Assembly (NCBI RefSeq): GCF_018413645.1
Contig: NZ_JAHCDA010000002.1
Location: forward strand, 124,001 to 188,000
DNA: 64,000 nucleotides
Source: Roseococcus pinisoli
Lineage (GTDB): Bacteria > Pseudomonadota > Alphaproteobacteria > Acetobacterales > Acetobacteraceae
Reading direction: 5' to 3'
Shown here: positions 41,671 through 47,568 of the stretch, in pieces
Position numbering within the stretch: the first letter of the stretch is position 1
Layout: every line of letters starts with the position of its first letter
Position numbers and translations under genes: made by a program
The notes under the pieces: model-generated
The model's database searches: none
Seen by the model: the letters and a program-made list of their open reading frames with translations, nothing else
What the model was told of the DNA's origin: nothing

Positions 41671-42524
41671 GCGCGCGCCTCCATCCGCAGAACCATTTGG
41701 AGCCGGAACACCTCCCTCAGCGGCAGCCCATGCTTACGGGCCACCTCAGCCGGATCAGCGCGCCGCCGAGACAGGTCCATCCGGGCACCGTCGTACTTGC
41801 GGGCCGTCACCGCATCCGCGATCGCGGGGCTGGGCTCGATGATGGGTTCGGGCGGTGCAGCAGCCGCAGCTTCCGCCTCGCGGACCCGACACAGGCGCTC
41901 CATGTCCGCGCGGTGGGCGGCGCGCTCCTGGCGCCGGAGCTCGGCGGCCGGCTTGTCCTCCTTGGCCGGCTTCGGCGGGGCAACGAGCTTAGGCGGCTTC
42001 GGCGGCCGGGCTCCGGATCGATGAGCACGCCGGCGCCGGTTGGAGCGCGCCTTGACCAGCCGCTGGCGCGCCAAGCGCTGCTCGGCCTCCTCCGCAGTCC
42101 ACACGCGCGGGAGGCGTCGCAGCCCGAGCTTTTGCGCGTGCGCGCGCACGGTCTTCGGGTTCTTGAGCGGCGGGCCGGCCATTGCGGATAGCGTGGTCCA
42201 GATCTCCACCTCAGCGACGCCGGCCGGGTATGCCTCACGCATGTAGGCCGCACGCTCGGGAGTCATGCACTCCTGTGCCCCTCGCTTTTTCTTGAGCCCA
42301 GGCGTGTCGCGGTGGGCAGCCCGGGAGTGCTCAGGCGAGAGCCGCAGGCCGAGGACATGCATGCGCCATGCGACCTGCTGCCACCGGGTGATGGGCGCGC
42401 CCGGCAGCTCGTTGAGCGGGACGACGCAGCTACGGCGCGCGCTGCCGCCCTTGACCAGCTCGGCCAGCAGCGCGTCGCGGGCCGGGTTCCAGACGCGGAG
42501 GGCAGGGGCGGGGGCGGGGGTCAT
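41667..42524 (-). CDS. Phage protein with basic linker, possible DNA-binding
   Basis: 285 residues. N-terminal half contains two stretches that resemble GcrA/SANT-like helices (ARDALLAELVKGGSARRSCVVPLNELPGAPITRWQQVAWRMHVLGL and TVRAHAQKLGLRRLPRVWTAEEAEQRLA). The middle is Arg/Lys/Pro-rich, and the end RRADPAEVARKHGLPLREVFRLQMVLRM looks like a further helix-turn-helix. DNA binding is likely but unproven. Confidence 0.65.
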   Translation of the reverse strand: MTPAPAPALRVWNPARDALLAELVKGGSARRSCVVPLNELPGAPITRWQQVAWRMHVLGLRLSPEHSRAAHRDTPGLKKKRGAQECMTPERAAYMREAYPAGVAEVEIWTTLSAMAGPPLKNPKTVRAHAQKLGLRRLPRVWTAEEAEQRLARQRLVKARSNRRRRAHRSGARPPKPPKLVAPPKPAKEDKPAAELRRQERAAHRADMERLCRVREAEAAAAAPPEPIIEPSPAIADAVTARKYDGARMDLSRRRADPAEVARKHGLPLREVFRLQMVLRMEARA

Positions 42525-43384
42525 GCGCCCTGCTCCGCGTTCGCCAGAGCATCGAGGCGGTCCTCGATTTCCCCCAGCGCGCCTGTCTCGAAGGACGGAT
42601 CGTCGGCGGCCACGGCCTCGATATGCGGCCGCATCGCTTCGCGCCAGCTCGCCACCGCGGTCGCGGACTCCAGCTTGCCCAGCTCCCGCATGAACCACCG
42701 CTGCCAGTGTTGAAGCGACGGGCAGTCGATGACCGAGGTGTCGGCCATGATCAGGGTGTACTTCTGCTCGGGCGCCGGCGGCGCGCTCGGAAGGCGCTCG
42801 GCCGTGCTGGTGATGGTCGGGCCAGCAGCCGGAGGCATCTGGTCGCGCGGGGCCTCGGGGGAGAATTCCTCCGGAGCATAGACGCCCAGCATGACCTCCG
42901 GCGCCCAGCGGCGCCCCCAGACGCGGCTCACGCTGTAGATGAGCTGCTGATCAGGCTGCTTGGCCCACATCTGGTTCGTGGTCTTCACATCCTTCAGCTT
43001 CACGGCCGCCGTCTTCGGCTTTGTCTCTCCTCGGATCCGGCCAGTGCAGGTGCAGGTGCGCTCCTCGCCGTCGCCGGCGAATTCATAGTCCAGTCGGCCG
43101 TCGAGGATCCCGCAGCTTTGAATGGCCGCGGCCACCAGCTTGCCCTCGAACATGAGCTTGCCCTGGATAACGCTGGTGCTTTGGGCCACAGCGAAGGGGC
43201 TCATGTTCCAGCGGGACGCCTGCTCGATGACCATGAGGCAATCGGACGGGCTGCCCTGCAGCGCCTTGGGCACGAGGGAGCCGCGGCACATCATATCGGC
43301 GAGCCGCATAGCCTCGGAAAGATTGCTGGGCGCCAGAGAGGAGATGGCGCTGGTCGGCCGGTCGGCCGGGACGATCGCGTTCAT
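42521..43384 (-). CDS. recT: RecT-family single-strand annealing protein
   Basis: 287 residues. The core LADMMCRGSLVPKALQGSPSDCLMVIEQASRWNMSPFAVAQSTSVIQGKLMFEGKLVAAAI is the RecT-family pattern (PF03837). Anneals complementary DNA during phage recombination. The ATG at 43384 is used; the longer frame is shadow. The Gp157-like gene is immediately upstream with a 4-base overlap, a pairing seen in many phages. I see no RecE-type or other exonuclease beside it. Confidence 0.88.
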   Translation of the reverse strand: MNAIVPADRPTSAISSLAPSNLSEAMRLADMMCRGSLVPKALQGSPSDCLMVIEQASRWNMSPFAVAQSTSVIQGKLMFEGKLVAAAIQSCGILDGRLDYEFAGDGEERTCTCTGRIRGETKPKTAAVKLKDVKTTNQMWAKQPDQQLIYSVSRVWGRRWAPEVMLGVYAPEEFSPEAPRDQMPPAAGPTITSTAERLPSAPPAPEQKYTLIMADTSVIDCPSLQHWQRWFMRELGKLESATAVASWREAMRPHIEAVAADDPSFETGALGEIEDRLDALANAEQGA

Positions 43385-43836
43385 GCCTTGCGGCTCCTCA
43401 CGAACAGAGAAGGGGACGAGTTGCTGATGACGGCGCCGGGCACCGTCTCGCCGGCGTCGAGCGCGGCCTTGATGGCGGCCGTGTCGGGCTTGGGCGGCTG
43501 TGGCACCAGGAAGCGCTCGGGCAGCAGCGCCGGGTCCGTGATCCGGACGCGCGCCGTCTCCGAGTAGCCAATGGTGTGCGTGCCCGTCGAAAAGGAGGGC
43601 GCGCCCAGGTCGGCCATGACGGACAGCAGCGCCTCGCGGACCTGCTTGGCCAAGGCGTCGGGGCGCGCGGCGAAGCTCTCGATGGCGACGAGTGCACGGC
43701 CCGCCCGGAGGAGGGTGGCCTCCACCTCCTGAGCGTCGTGGGCGTCGGCGGCCAGGATGCGCAGCGCCCGCGGCAGGTCGGCATCGAGCATGATCGCGGA
43801 CAGCGGCCCGCGGATCGGGGCGGCGTGGTCCGTCAT
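43381..43836 (-). CDS. Siphovirus Gp157-like protein
   Basis: 151 residues. The C-terminus RVRITDPALLPERFLVPQPPKPDTAAIKAALDAGETVPGAVI matches the well-known end of Gp157-family proteins (PDxxAIKxALKAGExVPGAxL). N-terminal half is helical. The role is unknown, though members were once linked to phage resistance in Streptococcus. Typically adjacent to RecT or SSB genes, as here. Confidence 0.8.
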   Translation of the reverse strand: MTDHAAPIRGPLSAIMLDADLPRALRILAADAHDAQEVEATLLRAGRALVAIESFAARPDALAKQVREALLSVMADLGAPSFSTGTHTIGYSETARVRITDPALLPERFLVPQPPKPDTAAIKAALDAGETVPGAVISNSSPSLFVRSRKA

Positions 43837-44337: not shown

Positions 44338-44507
44338 GCCGCCTCCAGCCTGTCGGCTTCGCGCTCCGCTTGTGCCGCCTCGCGCAACCAGTGCATCGCG
44401 TCGGCGGGGCGCTTGGCCGCGAGGCGCCGGGCGGTGTCAGCGAGGCGGCGCCAACCCGAGGCGCGTTGGAGGCGGTCCTCGGCGTCTGGCAGAAGCATGC
44501 CGGCCAT
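44334..44507 (-). CDS. Very small phage protein, unknown function
   Basis: 57 residues ([20 protein letters not shown]...), a helical Ala/Arg/Glu-rich peptide. It fits exactly between its neighbours, with a 4-base overlap downstream and a 1-base overlap with the pentapeptide gene, which supports translation. Confidence 0.55.
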   Translation of the reverse strand: MAGMLLPDAEDRLQRASGWRRLADTARRLAAKRPADAMHWLREAAQAEREADRLEAA

Positions 44508-45178
44508 CACGCCACCTCCCCGGTCGCCGCGGCGATGGCGGCGCGGAACTCCGTGATCCAGTCGTCCGCAATCTTGGCGGCCGAGTTGGTCTCCGGCGTG
44601 TCGCCCTTGCGGATCGCGCCGAAGAACACCTCGATGGGCCGTTCGGCGTCGCGGTAGCCCAGCGTGGTGACGCTGACGCCGCGCACATTGGCGATGGTGC
44701 CGACAAGGCACGCGCACTCGCCCGTGTAGGTGCTGCCGTCCACACGCCCCTCTCGCAGGGCCAGCTGGAGGGCCGGCACCTCGGGGATCGCCTTGAGCAG
44801 CACGTCCCACATGTCGTTGCGGACCGCACTCAGGTCCGCGCCGCGCAGGTACGCGCCGCGCAGGTCCGCGCCGCTCAGGTCCGCGTCGCGCAGGTCCGCG
44901 CCGCGCAGGTCCGCGTCGCGCAGGTCCGAGCCGCTCAGGTCCGCGTCGCGCAGGTCCGCGCCGCGCAGGTCCGCGTCGCGCAGGTCCGAGCCGCTCAGGT
45001 CCGAGCCGCTCCGAACGGCCGCCTCAACGCAGAGGCGCATCGTGTCGGACTGGCCCTCGAACAGGACCGAGTCCGTGTAGCGATGGCGGATTGTGAAGAG
45101 CGCGCTCACGACGCCACCGCCGCCTTTTGGCGGCAACGGAACGCCGCTCTCAATCCGGTACTGCGCTGTCTCCGACAT
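44507..45178 (-). CDS. Pentapeptide-repeat phage protein
   Basis: 223 residues. Residues 59-115 hold about twelve A/S-D-L-x-x pentapeptides ([20 protein letters not shown] and variants), predicted to fold as a right-handed quadrilateral helix. A C-terminal domain follows: [40 protein letters not shown]. First gene of the leftward operon, with a good GAGGAG site upstream and the GGCC operator array beyond. Pentapeptide proteins can mimic DNA and inhibit gyrase; no such role is shown here. Confidence 0.85.
44881..45000. repeat. Perfect 60-bp tandem duplication in the pentapeptide gene
   Basis: Bases 44881-44940 and 44941-45000 are identical over 60 bp, encoding four pentapeptides each. The surrounding 44836-45015 consists of degenerate 15-bp units (CAGGTCCGCG plus variable bases). 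Perfect identity points to recent expansion or contraction by slippage. Confidence 0.95.
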
Positions 45179-45211
45179 TTCGCGATCTCCTCAGCGGCCG
45201 AGTGGCCGTGG

Positions 45212-45265
45212 GGCCATTATGGCCATGTCGGCCAGCAATGCAAGGCCAAAATGGCCAATTTGGCC
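45212..45265. promoter_or_regulatory. Phage operator array, oL-like (GGCC boxes at 9-bp spacing)
   Basis: Two triplets of GGCC: at 45212, 45221, 45230 and at 45244, 45253, 45262, each exactly 9 bp apart. Adjacent boxes form 13-bp dyads such as GGCCATTATGGCC, GGCCAAAATGGCC and GGCCAATTTGGCC. They lie between the divergent pentapeptide gene (leftward arm) and the gene at 45371. The same motif recurs beside cI and cro, so this is probably the repressor's second operator. Confidence 0.8.
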
Positions 45266-45370
45266 TTGCCCCTGATTTGGCGATTTCGCCCCTGCAGGAA
45301 TTGCTTGATCAGGCAGAACGGATCGCCTATCGAAATCGAACAAAGCAGGAACAAACCGAAGGAGCATGAG

Positions 45371-45709
45371 ATGGCCGCGACTGCAAAATCCCGAGTTCGC
45401 CCCCTCGACAATGCCGTGATGCGCATCATCCAGCTCGCCGGCCGCGGCGCCGCGCCGAGCCGCATGGCGCGGGAAATCGAGCTGATCATCAGTGAGTGGG
45501 AGCAGGAGCTAGGCGGCGAGATCGAACCCACCCGCGAGCGCGTCGATGGCCTGCACGAGATGCTCGTCTCGGGCGTGGCCGACGCTGAGGAGCAGGTCAG
45601 CGACGTCGATCGTGGCGATCCTGCGGCGCTACGCCAGGCGCAGACTACGCTTGCCGGTCTGACGACCTGCCGAGATGCGGCGTTGCGCTGGCTCGAGCGC
45701 CACGGTTAG
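45371..45709 (+). CDS. Phage protein of unknown function
   Basis: 112 residues, helical and acidic (IIQLAGRGAAPSRMAREIELIISEWEQELGGEI). AAGGAG at 45359-45364 precedes the ATG, so the long upstream extension of the frame is rejected. It is transcribed rightward from the operator region, convergent with the cI operon. No family recognised. Confidence 0.65.
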   Translation: MAATAKSRVRPLDNAVMRIIQLAGRGAAPSRMAREIELIISEWEQELGGEIEPTRERVDGLHEMLVSGVADAEEQVSDVDRGDPAALRQAQTTLAGLTTCRDAALRWLERHG

Positions 45710-45782
45710 GGCCGGCTGCTGGCGGCCCTAGGCGCAAAAAACGCCGGCCGGAGCGGGCGGTGGTGAATGGAAAGGCGCCAGT

Positions 45783-46124
45783 CTACCCCAGGAAGAACTT
45801 CATGACGCCGCCAGCTGCAAGGACAGCAAACACGAAGCCGATCATGGTCAGAGTAGAAGGAAGCTGGGAGACCCGGCCGTCAAGCCGTGCCACATCAGTC
45901 TCAAGCTTCCGTCCCGCCGCGTCGATGCGGTTCAAGACCGGCTCAAGTCGGCCCAACGTTGTTCTGATGTCGCCGACGCCTGTCTCCAGCTTGAGCAGGC
46001 GCTCGAGGGTGTCATCGGGTGGCATACCTCCATCATGAGGTCCGCTGGGCGCGCCTTCAAGGCTGCGGCCTCGGTTTCGGCGGTGATCCGGCCAATCATG
46101 GTAATGGATTTTGCTACTGCTCAT
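45783..46124 (-). CDS. Small coiled-coil protein with C-terminal membrane helix (XhlA-like)
   Basis: 113 residues: a coiled-coil region (TLERLLKLETGVGDIRTTLGRLEPVLNRIDAAGRKLETDVARLDGRV) then one membrane helix (TMIGFVFAVLAAGGVMKFFL). This architecture is like haemolysin XhlA or spanin/holin-associated proteins, but the place at the end of the cI operon argues for a lysogenic role such as superinfection exclusion. The ATGA overlap with the previous gene supports this start; MPPDD at 46025 is an alternative. Confidence 0.65.
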   Translation of the reverse strand: MSSSKIHYHDWPDHRRNRGRSLEGAPSGPHDGGMPPDDTLERLLKLETGVGDIRTTLGRLEPVLNRIDAAGRKLETDVARLDGRVSQLPSTLTMIGFVFAVLAAGGVMKFFLG

Positions 46125-46411
46125 CGGGGCCCTGCACCGCCGCTAGGCGTGTCCTCCTCGCGTTTCAATATGGCGACGATGTGCTGACGCACGTAGCCGC
46201 AGTTGGTGCATGTGAAAAGATATGTCGGGCGCTCTTCAATATGCCGCGTCGCCATGTTCACGACTGGCAGTAAGGCCATGCTGTAGAACCAATCAGCTCT
46301 CTCACAGGCAGGGCATCCGGTTTTCACGTGCCGACGATTGAGATCGTCGACTGCCTCCATAATTCCTATATTTGACCCAGGAGGATGGCTCGCCGTGGTG
46401 TCCTTGCTCAC
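46121..46411 (-). CDS. Small zinc-ribbon-like phage protein
   Basis: 96 residues with two Cys pairs: GCPACERADWF and FTCTNCGYVRQH, a CxxC-(about 35)-CxxC ribbon likely to bind zinc. Overlaps both neighbours by 4 bases in the cI operon. Function unknown. Confidence 0.7.
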   Translation of the reverse strand: MSKDTTASHPPGSNIGIMEAVDDLNRRHVKTGCPACERADWFYSMALLPVVNMATRHIEERPTYLFTCTNCGYVRQHIVAILKREEDTPSGGAGPR

Positions 46412-46593
46412 TTCTTTCCCTTTCTATCCGGCGCCATATCCCCCTCATTCCTATTCACCATCCCCCGAGCCGCAACGAGCAGCCCCGTCTGTTGATCCGT
46501 CGTTAGCTTGTCCCAGAGCGCGAGGATCTCCGCCCGGCCCGCGAAGCCGAGCGTGGGGAGTGGGTGAGAGATGGCGTCGAGCCGGGTGGTCAT
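46408..46593 (-). CDS. Small phage protein in the cI operon, unknown function
   Basis: 61 residues from MTTRLDAISHPLPTLGF; helical, Lys-rich end (DRKGKK). The start overlaps the cI stop as ATGA, and the stop overlaps the next gene by 4 bases, so it is translationally coupled. No family recognised. Confidence 0.6.
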   Translation of the reverse strand: MTTRLDAISHPLPTLGFAGRAEILALWDKLTTDQQTGLLVAARGMVNRNEGDMAPDRKGKK

Positions 46594-47279
46594 TGCGCCC
46601 ATTCGCGCCAGTGAAGCGCGCGCCAAAGCTCCTTCACCCGAGCGCGGTCTATCGTTCGCTCCACGGCAGGGTTGTACTGTCGGAAGACAACCGAATGGTT
46701 GTCGCCGCGAACATACTCCTTGAGGTAGGCGGAGGGCTGCTCGCCCGGGCCCTCTTCCACGAGGACGACGGCATACGCGCCTGGCGTTACTGGTCGGTTC
46801 TTGGAGACGTACACCACATCGCCAGGCTCCCAGACTCCAACCATGCTGTCGCCCGCCACAAATAGGGCGAAGATACCAGGGACGCCGACGAGCTTCGCGG
46901 GAGTGTCCACGTAGTCAAGCGGGTGCCCGGTCGCCAAATTGACGATGAACTGGCCGTCTGAGCCGCAAGACACCGTTCCCAGGACCTCCGTTGTCGCGGC
47001 CAAAGGAAGCCGCTTTGGTTCCATTGGAACCCGAAGTTGGAGCGGTTGTACATCACTGCCGAGGGCATATTCCAAGGCAGGTATTGGCGCCCCCTCGCTG
47101 GCGAGCAGATCGTCCGGCCGGACTGATAGCGCGGGCGCGAACATGTCCGCCCAGTGCCGGCGCATCTCTCGCTTGGCACCCACCAGCTTGCTGATCGTGC
47201 TCGGGTCGACCTTGCACGTGCGCGCGAGTTCAGCGGCGCTCACTCCTCGCGCGTCCATGATTTCTTTGAGGCGGCTCAT
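46590..47279 (-). CDS. CI-like phage repressor (HTH plus S24/LexA peptidase domain)
   Basis: 229 residues. N-terminal HTH: VSAAELARTCKVDPSTISKLVGAKREMRRHW (13-43). C-terminal S24 domain: nucleophile Ser145 in FVAGDSM, general-base Lys187 in SAYLKEY, and EPGDVVYV between them. A Cys105-Gly106 pair in the linker is a possible autocleavage site, so RecA-dependent induction is expected. Start at 47279: no Shine-Dalgarno is visible and operator boxes begin 3 bases away, so the message may be leaderless. Confidence 0.92.
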   Translation of the reverse strand: MSRLKEIMDARGVSAAELARTCKVDPSTISKLVGAKREMRRHWADMFAPALSVRPDDLLASEGAPIPALEYALGSDVQPLQLRVPMEPKRLPLAATTEVLGTVSCGSDGQFIVNLATGHPLDYVDTPAKLVGVPGIFALFVAGDSMVGVWEPGDVVYVSKNRPVTPGAYAVVLVEEGPGEQPSAYLKEYVRGDNHSVVFRQYNPAVERTIDRARVKELWRALHWREWAQ

Positions 47280-47281
47280 TT

Positions 47282-47362
47282 GGCCGGTTTGGCCATAACC
47301 ATCAATGGTGTCACGGGCCGAATTGGCCTTGACATTATCTGGCCAAATTGGCCATTCTGGCC
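47282..47362. promoter_or_regulatory. Phage operator region between cI and cro, oR-like
   Basis: Seven GGCC boxes in three groups at exact 9-bp spacing: 47282/47291, 47316/47325, and 47341/47350/47359. Dyads include GGCCGGTTTGGCC, GGCCGAATTGGCC and GGCCAAATTGGCC. A TTGACA at 47329-47334 is a likely -35 of the cro promoter with a -10 near 47353-47358, placing the start of transcription at or near the cro ATG. Three operators between divergent repressor genes copy the lambda oR plan. Confidence 0.82.
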
Positions 47363-47364
47363 CC

Positions 47365-47568
47365 ATGACGCTCTCAGAGTTCATCGCGGCGCAGGACTGG
47401 TCGATGGCCGATGCCGCCAAGGCATTTGGATTGGATCACCCCCGGACCGTCCACCGATACGCATCGGGCGAGCGCATCCCGCGCCCTGAGGTCATGCGGC
47501 GCATTGTCCACGCGACCGGCGGCAAGGTGACGCCGGGTGATTTCTACCATGCGCCGGCCGCCGACTGA
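47365..47568 (+). CDS. Cro-like HTH regulator
   Basis: 67 residues: SMADAAKAFGLDHPRTVHRYASGERIPRPEVMRRI is a Cro/XRE helix-turn-helix of the YdaS or Cro type. It starts 2 bases after the last GGCC box, has no Shine-Dalgarno, and opens the rightward early arm. Expected to compete with CI for the GGCC operators. Confidence 0.85.
   Translation: MTLSEFIAAQDWSMADAAKAFGLDHPRTVHRYASGERIPRPEVMRRIVHATGGKVTPGDFYHAPAAD

Follow-up and report, generated by a model that had tools for sequence, protein, structure and literature searches.

The question raised by this locus, part of a 64,000-nucleotide stretch of DNA from Roseococcus pinisoli, which is related to the acetic-acid bacteria (contig NZ_JAHCDA010000002.1, positions 124,001 to 188,000; hereafter the window, whose first letter is position 1), is what is served by two short arrays of GGCC boxes, at 45212–45265 and 47282–47362, on either side of a phage repressor gene. 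The two stretches are likely the left and right operator regions, oL and oR, of a genetic switch resembling that of lambda, with the boxes as predicted operators of its CI and Cro proteins; that they form two operator regions at both early promoters, analogous to oL and oR of lambda, is judged very probable. This assignment draws its support from the flanking CI, Cro, Gp157 and RecT genes and from a layout kept in relatives; the positions of the boxes, their motif, its conservation and the layout are directly visible in the DNA.

Regarding the boxes, those of the left stretch start at 45212, 45221 and 45230, and at 45244, 45253 and 45262; those of the right stretch start at 47282 and 47291, at 47316 and 47325, and at 47341, 47350 and 47359. 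All 13 fall into groups of two or three with 9-bp steps and form eight 13-bp GGCC-N5-GGCC dyads, which confirms the phased clusters reported in a preliminary description of this DNA, except that its count of 12 grouped boxes out of 13 was one short; two more boxes with 8-bp steps, at 45196 and 45204, adjoin the left stretch and were absent from that description. The primary dyads (OR1 to OR3, OL1 and OL2; Table 1) are separated, with centres 23 bp apart in oL and 34 and 25 bp apart in oR, and the 9-bp overlap is an added dyad on the putative −10 element. Thus, the likeness to oL and oR claimed earlier stands, on the strength of the genes and of the layout in relatives, and the claim that the overlapping geometry differs from the separated dyads of lambda is not supported as it was put. 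Multiple related dyads of both regions lie within early promoters read by eye, namely the rightward promoter PR and the leftward promoter PL, which precedes a pentapeptide-repeat gene; as for the gene at 45371, to which the left sites had also been assigned, no −35/−10 pair was seen for it in the boxes.

The gene content fits an immunity region of the lambda kind: cI and cro are divergent, the repressor has a helix-turn-helix (HTH) and a Peptidase_S24 domain in one protein, the Gp157 and RecT genes lie 3′ of PL on the same strand, in the gene order of a left operon with recombination genes, and an O-like replication initiator is encoded on the right side. In the repressor alignment (A2), S145 is invariant, and K187 and G106 are nearly so; S145 and K187 are the putative catalytic Ser and Lys, and G106 would be part of the putative cleavable Ala/Cys-Gly.

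Table 1. Features of the immunity region, in window positions (strand given where one applies).
Feature	Position	Strand	Basis or occurrence
OR3, dyad GGCC-ggttt-GGCC, adjoins cI start codon	47282..47294		Same position (CC at −13 from cI ATG) in 13 of 40 cI rows, window included
OR2, dyad GGCC-gaatt-GGCC, abuts PR −35	47316..47328		Same place in L003, L017 and L018 (AGCC..GGCC)
OR1, dyad GGCC-aaatt-GGCC, within PR spacer	47341..47353		O1 position conserved
OR1′, dyad GGCC-attct-GGCC, one box common with OR1, spacer holds putative PR −10	47350..47362		Also in L017 and L010 (GGCG)
PR −35, TTGACA	47329..47334	+	Read from sequence
Putative PR −10, CATTCT, 18-nt spacer, 6 nt 5′ of cro ATG	47353..47358	+	Read from sequence
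OL2, dyad GGCC-aaaat-GGCC, abuts PL −35	45244..45256		Sequence and relatives
Extra dyad overlapping OL2, side away from PL	45253..45265		Sequence
OL1, dyad GGCC-atgtc-GGCC, within PL spacer	45221..45233		Sequence and relatives
OL1′, dyad GGCC-attat-GGCC, overlaps OL1, spacer holds putative PL −10	45212..45224		Same in L282 and L283
PL −35, TTGCAT	45238..45243	−	Read from sequence
Putative PL −10, CATAAT, 16-nt spacer	45216..45221	−	Read from sequence
Two GGCC boxes, 8-bp steps, 3′ of PL, in putative 5′ leader of pentapeptide message	45196..45207		Sequence
CI-like repressor, 229 amino acids	46590..47279	−	HTH_26 E 6.2e-8, Peptidase_S24 E 9.6e-9, phrog_4
Cro-like HTH protein (HTH_3), 67 amino acids	47365..47568	+	No Shine-Dalgarno; putative leaderless start
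Pentapeptide-repeat gene, first gene after PL	44507..45178	−	PF00805, E 1.7e-23
Gp157/Gam-like gene, left operon	43381..43836	−	Domain/profile matches
RecT gene, left operon	42521..43390	−	E 2.6e-11; phrog_561 E 7.2e-59

The layout was read in relatives, here the order Acetobacterales, as an O2 dyad, a −35 element, an O1 dyad in the promoter spacer and a −10 element. Repressor matches were present in 209 genomes, 30 matches were made into loci (L numbers), and 15 of these together with one viral contig gave 16 repressor upstream regions, the window copy included, nine of which contain GGCCN5GGCC. OR3, OR2 and OR1 are spaced by 34 and 24 bp in L003, L017 and L018, and by 34 and 25 bp in the window; the L003 repressor is 69% identical to that of the window, OR2 of L018 reads AGCC..GGCC, and L004 has TGCC-AATAT-GGCA in the same 13-bp frame. 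On the left side, an oL with two dyads around TTGAC or a similar hexamer start was found in 11 relatives' loci, five of which (L290–L294) are near-duplicates; the element between O2 and O1 is TTGAC in nine of the 11, TTGAG in L283 and TTGCC in L120, and in the window, L281, L282, L284 and L120 the PL −35 lies directly against O2. The L017 repressor (1501–2157) has an HTH 54% identical to that of the window over residues 2–66 and a strongly diverged C-terminal S24 part, and its operators are the same; because operators and a similar HTH are shared despite this divergence, the repressor HTH appears to track the operator type, and the L017 protein suggests a domain exchange.

A core common to a wider set of phages was found with a Cro profile (A1), which gave 73 cro upstream rows; nine with a non-ATG start, a weak E-value or a short flank were dropped, which left 64 with an ATG start, a strong score and sufficient flank. 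In these 64 rows CCAN3TGG occurs 63 times, versus 2.9 ± 1.9 after shuffling, and CCN5GG 126 times versus 30.9; CC/GG pairs with spacers of 2–4 and 6–9 are not raised in the same rows, the highest being spacer 6 (38 versus 32.0), and perfect inverted repeats of 4 bp show their strongest excess at the odd spacers 1, 3, 5 and 7, and a smaller one at 11 and 12. The window falls within this group, with CC-N5-GG dyads between divergent cI and cro and start codons lacking a Shine-Dalgarno sequence. Two further Cro-profile searches, of 385 and 397 genomes, in which no new GGCC-type oR was noticed, provided a held-out set of 23 loci from other families of the class, reduced to 19 rows; here CCAN3TGG occurs ten times versus 0.5 and CCN5GG 23 times versus 5.9. 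By eye, the outer bases vary by lineage (GGCC/GGCC, TACC/GGTA, TATCC/GGATA, GTCC/GGAC, TGCC/GGCA), and so does the recognition-helix motif, which is [ST]T..K in the GGCC-group repressors nearest the window and QA[QE]I.RL in the TACC type. This apparent pairing is a lead only, because L120 (GGCC-like operators, other motif) and L215 (GTCC, yet ST..K) are exceptions.

As for the start codons, TTGAC is present in 35 of the 64 cro rows, and 34 of its 35 occurrences lie 34–38 nt before the cro ATG; a Shine-Dalgarno-like string is found in six of 64 cro rows and in two of 40 cI rows. In the held-out set six of nine TTGAC occurrences lie at 34–37 nt, and two of 19 rows have the Shine-Dalgarno-like string. 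Both cI and cro are probably leaderless, because such strings are rare and, for cro, the distance from TTGAC to the ATG is nearly constant. For the cI side the ATG nearest the HTH was taken, and of 44 rows, four in which no cI ATG could be assigned were dropped; the CC of the dyad lies at −13/−14 in 15 of the 40 remaining rows, at −21 to −23 in 12, and elsewhere within 30 nt in two. On the cro side, 39 of the 126 dyads start at −19 to −26, and a dyad at −13/−14 occurs in four of 64 rows (window, L017, L010 and L215), in three of them besides O1. The dyads thus seem to favour two phases before the ATG, with CC at −22 (in the promoter spacer) or −13 (on the −10), 9 bp apart, and the window phage fills both phases at PR, with a corresponding arrangement at PL.

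The mechanism proposed is as follows. The S24-type CI would bind as a dimer, as Cro probably would too, to odd 13-bp dyads with the consensus GGCC-A-www-T-GGCC; at both early promoters O2 abuts the −35 and O1 fills the spacer, and OR3 covers the cI start, so placed that occupation of O1 and O2 would shut PR and PL while OR3 would tune cI. The S24 domain suggests that release would occur by RecA-stimulated self-cleavage, as in other proteins of the family. The cI and cro messages probably start at or beside the AUG, so that some 25 bp would hold −10, operator and start codon together; O1 would share its right half-site with O1′, for which it is the left one, and the spacer ATNNT of O1′ would belong to the −10. 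O1′ may itself be a working site, with O1 and O1′ as alternative, mutually exclusive registers of one dimer, an arrangement that would cover the −10 more tightly and would not seat two dimers.

Several observations weigh against this reading. CC-N5-GG within 30 nt of the cI ATG is absent in 11 of the 40 cI rows; the PL −35 does not abut O2 in L283, L290–L294 and L233; the rows are not phylogenetically independent; and in the held-out set CCN6GG (15 versus 6.0) and CCN7GG (13 versus 6.2) are likewise raised, though more weakly. A sigma-70 scan gave no promoter above threshold in the region and, since it misses PR and PL too, is uninformative for a promoter of the 45371 gene; both putative −10 elements are weak matches, and the PR spacer is as long as 18 nt. 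At the position expected for the −10 of the cI promoter PRM, the window phage reads CAAACC, a poor match; CATNAT stands there in five of the 15 rows with OR3 at −13/−14 (hand count). Finally, in relatives the third box on the cro side follows the ATG (−4 to −6) more closely than it follows O1 (right box at −15 to −19), and a start-site element would account for this no less well than a half-site.

This last point concerns the 9-bp overlap. At both PR and PL a further dyad, completed by the third box, has the putative −10 in its spacer (Table 1), and the operator core A-N3-T coincides with the conserved A and T of the −10, so that one sequence can apparently serve both; sharing a half-site is possible because GGCC is its own reverse complement, as TACC and TATCC are not. 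The preliminary description proposed to look for 9-bp phased GGCC in related prophages; among eight lineages scored by hand (window, L003/L281, L017/L282, L010/L283, L018/L284, the L217/L290–294 group, L233 and L120; L005/L006, L007, L008 and L012/L278, in which no oL was recognised, were set aside), the overlap is present at both PR and PL in three (window, L017/L282 and L010/L283) and at neither in five. The association has a Fisher probability of 1/56 (hand count, post hoc), or 3/28 if the third PR box of L010, which is GGCG, is counted as lacking, in which case two lineages have both boxes and one has the PL box only. The idea of a conserved 9-bp operator at every third box was dropped, as the step from O1 differs in L018, L233, the L217 group, L005, L006 and L008, and the box is absent in L003 and L007.

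Among the other explanations, the one that fares best, possible although less likely than not, keeps the operators and takes the third box to be the GC-rich discriminator element of leaderless promoters, reading GGCC by chance, with the 9-bp overlap as a by-product. In GGCC-type oR regions the ATG-adjacent box lies at −4 to −6 whatever its step from O1 (9, 11, 12 or 14), and in phages without GCC-type dyads GGC occurs within the last 8 nt before the ATG in 11 of 38 cases, versus 3.6 expected, and GGCC in three, versus 0.8. However, PL has no start codon at that place, and its box co-occurs with that of PR (both in three lineages, neither in five); OR3 shows the same −15/−6 geometry as a dyad; and the carriers are not grouped in the tree, where L017 pairs with its sister L018 (support 90/81), which is without the overlap, several forks being weak.

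A bolder version of the shared half-site, in which one dimer toggles between two registers that leave the −10 clear or cover it, or more than one dimer sits on the triple box, so that the −10 holds a graded operator, is rather unlikely; if true, only phages with a self-complementary half-site could make use of it. Still more doubtful is the earlier suggestion that the overlapping boxes hold several dimers at once, either next to each other or joined in a filament on the array. No sign of filaments was found, nor could sequence analysis be expected to reveal one. The three-box 9-bp runs and the extra overlapped dyad at OL2 speak for it, as does the higher band that UmuDAb, an S24-family protein with a 21-bp arm-core-arm operator, gave beside its main shift, according to the available part of PMC11332147. 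However, the L003 phage, its repressor so similar, lacks the overlap, and no 9-bp run in these stretches is longer than three boxes, the step to the next box being 14 to 25 bp, or 8 bp at 45204–45212. We consider one dimer in alternative registers likelier than a pair of dimers or a filament, since both dimers of a pair would have to use one and the same 4-bp half-site.

There remains the background frequency of the motif. The window has 1010 GGCC boxes and 25 GGCCN5GGCC dyads, versus 8.25 (standard deviation 2.65) in shuffles, eight of them within the two stretches, and at least four dyads within 85 bp occur only at these two places. With the stretches cut out as 45190–45270 and 47275–47365, step 9 is not preferred among the 995 remaining boxes (17 pairs; step 6, 26; step 8, 17; step 12, 27), versus eight pairs inside both stretches; of 200 first-order Markov resamples, none had a four-dyad cluster and two had a three-dyad place. 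In the whole genome (4.79 Mb), 36 places carry the triple GGCCN5GGCCN5GGCC, including three in the two stretches, with 8 to 10 A/T among the ten spacer bases in these three and six at most in the others (hand count), and GGCC[AT]5GGCC at six places, four of them here. The other two are inside open reading frames (ORFs) of 297 and 381 amino acids, with no CI or Cro profile matches in the 8-kb stretches around them; a chromosomal regulon with the same sites is not supported, both remaining AT-rich matches falling within long ORFs.

Scanning DNA for a pair of dyads flanking a TTG −35 returned 93 viral and 77 genome stretches, and proved a poor way to find operators. In these 170 loci (1.40 Mb), pre-selected for a related GGCC pattern, there are 11 clusters of at least four dyads, one being the oR of L176 and the rest reading as tandem-repeat or GC-rich sequence (spacer A/T from 0/20 to 22/30), and such clusters are not peculiar to operators; 139 of 182 pattern-motif matches have five A/T at most among ten spacer bases, unlike the operators. 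The motif lies beside an A1-type Cro in L035, L185 and L176, and at oL in L120; L080 was picked by eye, and L143, L066 and L119 have weaker HTH or Cro profile matches within 1 kb of the motif. In 49 viral loci picked by protein (401 kb) there are no four-dyad clusters and four three-dyad clusters, every one at an oR (L232 and L276, which are the same contig, L233 and L234). Chance or GC-rich coding bias, for which the abundance of GGCC and the non-operator clusters of the pattern-picked loci might be cited, has next to no probability, already being contradicted because the layout is conserved in position among relatives, and further by the empty resamples, the intergenic location and the AT-rich spacers.

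Among known systems, one of the closest is lambda, with its oL and oR regions: divergent cI and cro, three primary dyads on the right and two on the left, sites inside the early promoters, and recombination genes in the left operon. Unlike the 17-bp sites of lambda, the dyads here are 13-bp GGCC dyads, an extra dyad overlaps O1 at both early promoters, and cro is apparently leaderless too; for lambda, the available part of PMC4488713 gives a leaderless cI mRNA. The same part reports CI/Cro switches, likewise a point of resemblance, in the telomere phages PY54, phiKO2 and N15, with operator specificity in peripheral base pairs and, for PY54, leaderless cI and cro messages found by rapid amplification of cDNA ends; overlapping dyads with a shared half-site are not reported there. 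Rhizobium phage 16-3 is also similar, with an S24-type C repressor (35.3% identical over 57% of the query) and annotated oL and oR; its OR1, OR2, OL1 and OL2 are of ACAA/TTGT type, 14 bp in OR and 12 bp in OL, two per region, non-overlapping and without a CC-N5-GG core, and such ACAA/TTGT half-sites are not found in the window, whose operators are GGCC dyads. A 2025 article (PMC12429752) describes phiLM21-like prophages as lacking any operator identical to one of lambda or 16-3. The UmuDAb operator of Acinetobacter resembles the present one in its three parts (arm, core, arm), and half-sites and overlapping sites are considered for it in the part of PMC11332147 noted above; it differs in serving a DNA-damage regulon, in its length and in its non-palindromic core, the window having a phage switch in which every box is a palindrome by itself and any two neighbours make up a full dyad.

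No published account of GGCC operators in such phages was found in a literature search that mostly left out subscription journals. The locus would be a compact variant of a well-known switch design, in which two sites overlap by four bases at the presumed transcription start, a concrete case of operator, −10 hexamer and start codon seemingly merged and a clean test case for overlapping dyads with a shared half-site. For this group of alphaproteobacterial temperate phages, it would also offer a readable operator code, with a CC-A-N3-T-GG core and lineage-specific outer bases, from which immunity groups might be predictable.

Some minor observations concern the surroundings of the switch. Among the 11 relatives' oL loci, neither the extra dyad at OL2 has a 9-bp counterpart nor the box pair at 45196..45207 an equivalent; L290–L293, not L294, have an extra single GGCC box 14–15 bp upstream of OL2, outside any N5 dyad. 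On the viral contig L080 (reverse complement, about 470–1076), GGCCAAGTTGGCC flanks TTGACA on both sides in front of a pentapeptide-repeat gene, an arrangement that the window shares, and nearby are two ORFs, an HTH-like one in which no S24 part is visible and a small Cro-like one unmatched by the profiles used; apparently, the same operator is combined there with different immunity genes. Between cI and oL the window has mechanical ORFs on the minus strand (46408–46626, 46121–46411 and 45783–46124) and on the plus strand (45371–45709), versus a distance of just about 0.4 kb in L281; these four small ORFs (45371–46626) are possible lysogeny cargo, comparable to rex of lambda. Finally, the pentapeptide gene contains, at 44831–45009, 11.9 copies of a near-identical 15-bp repeat, with a 60-bp higher-order unit at 97% matches, and this near-identity suggests a recent expansion.

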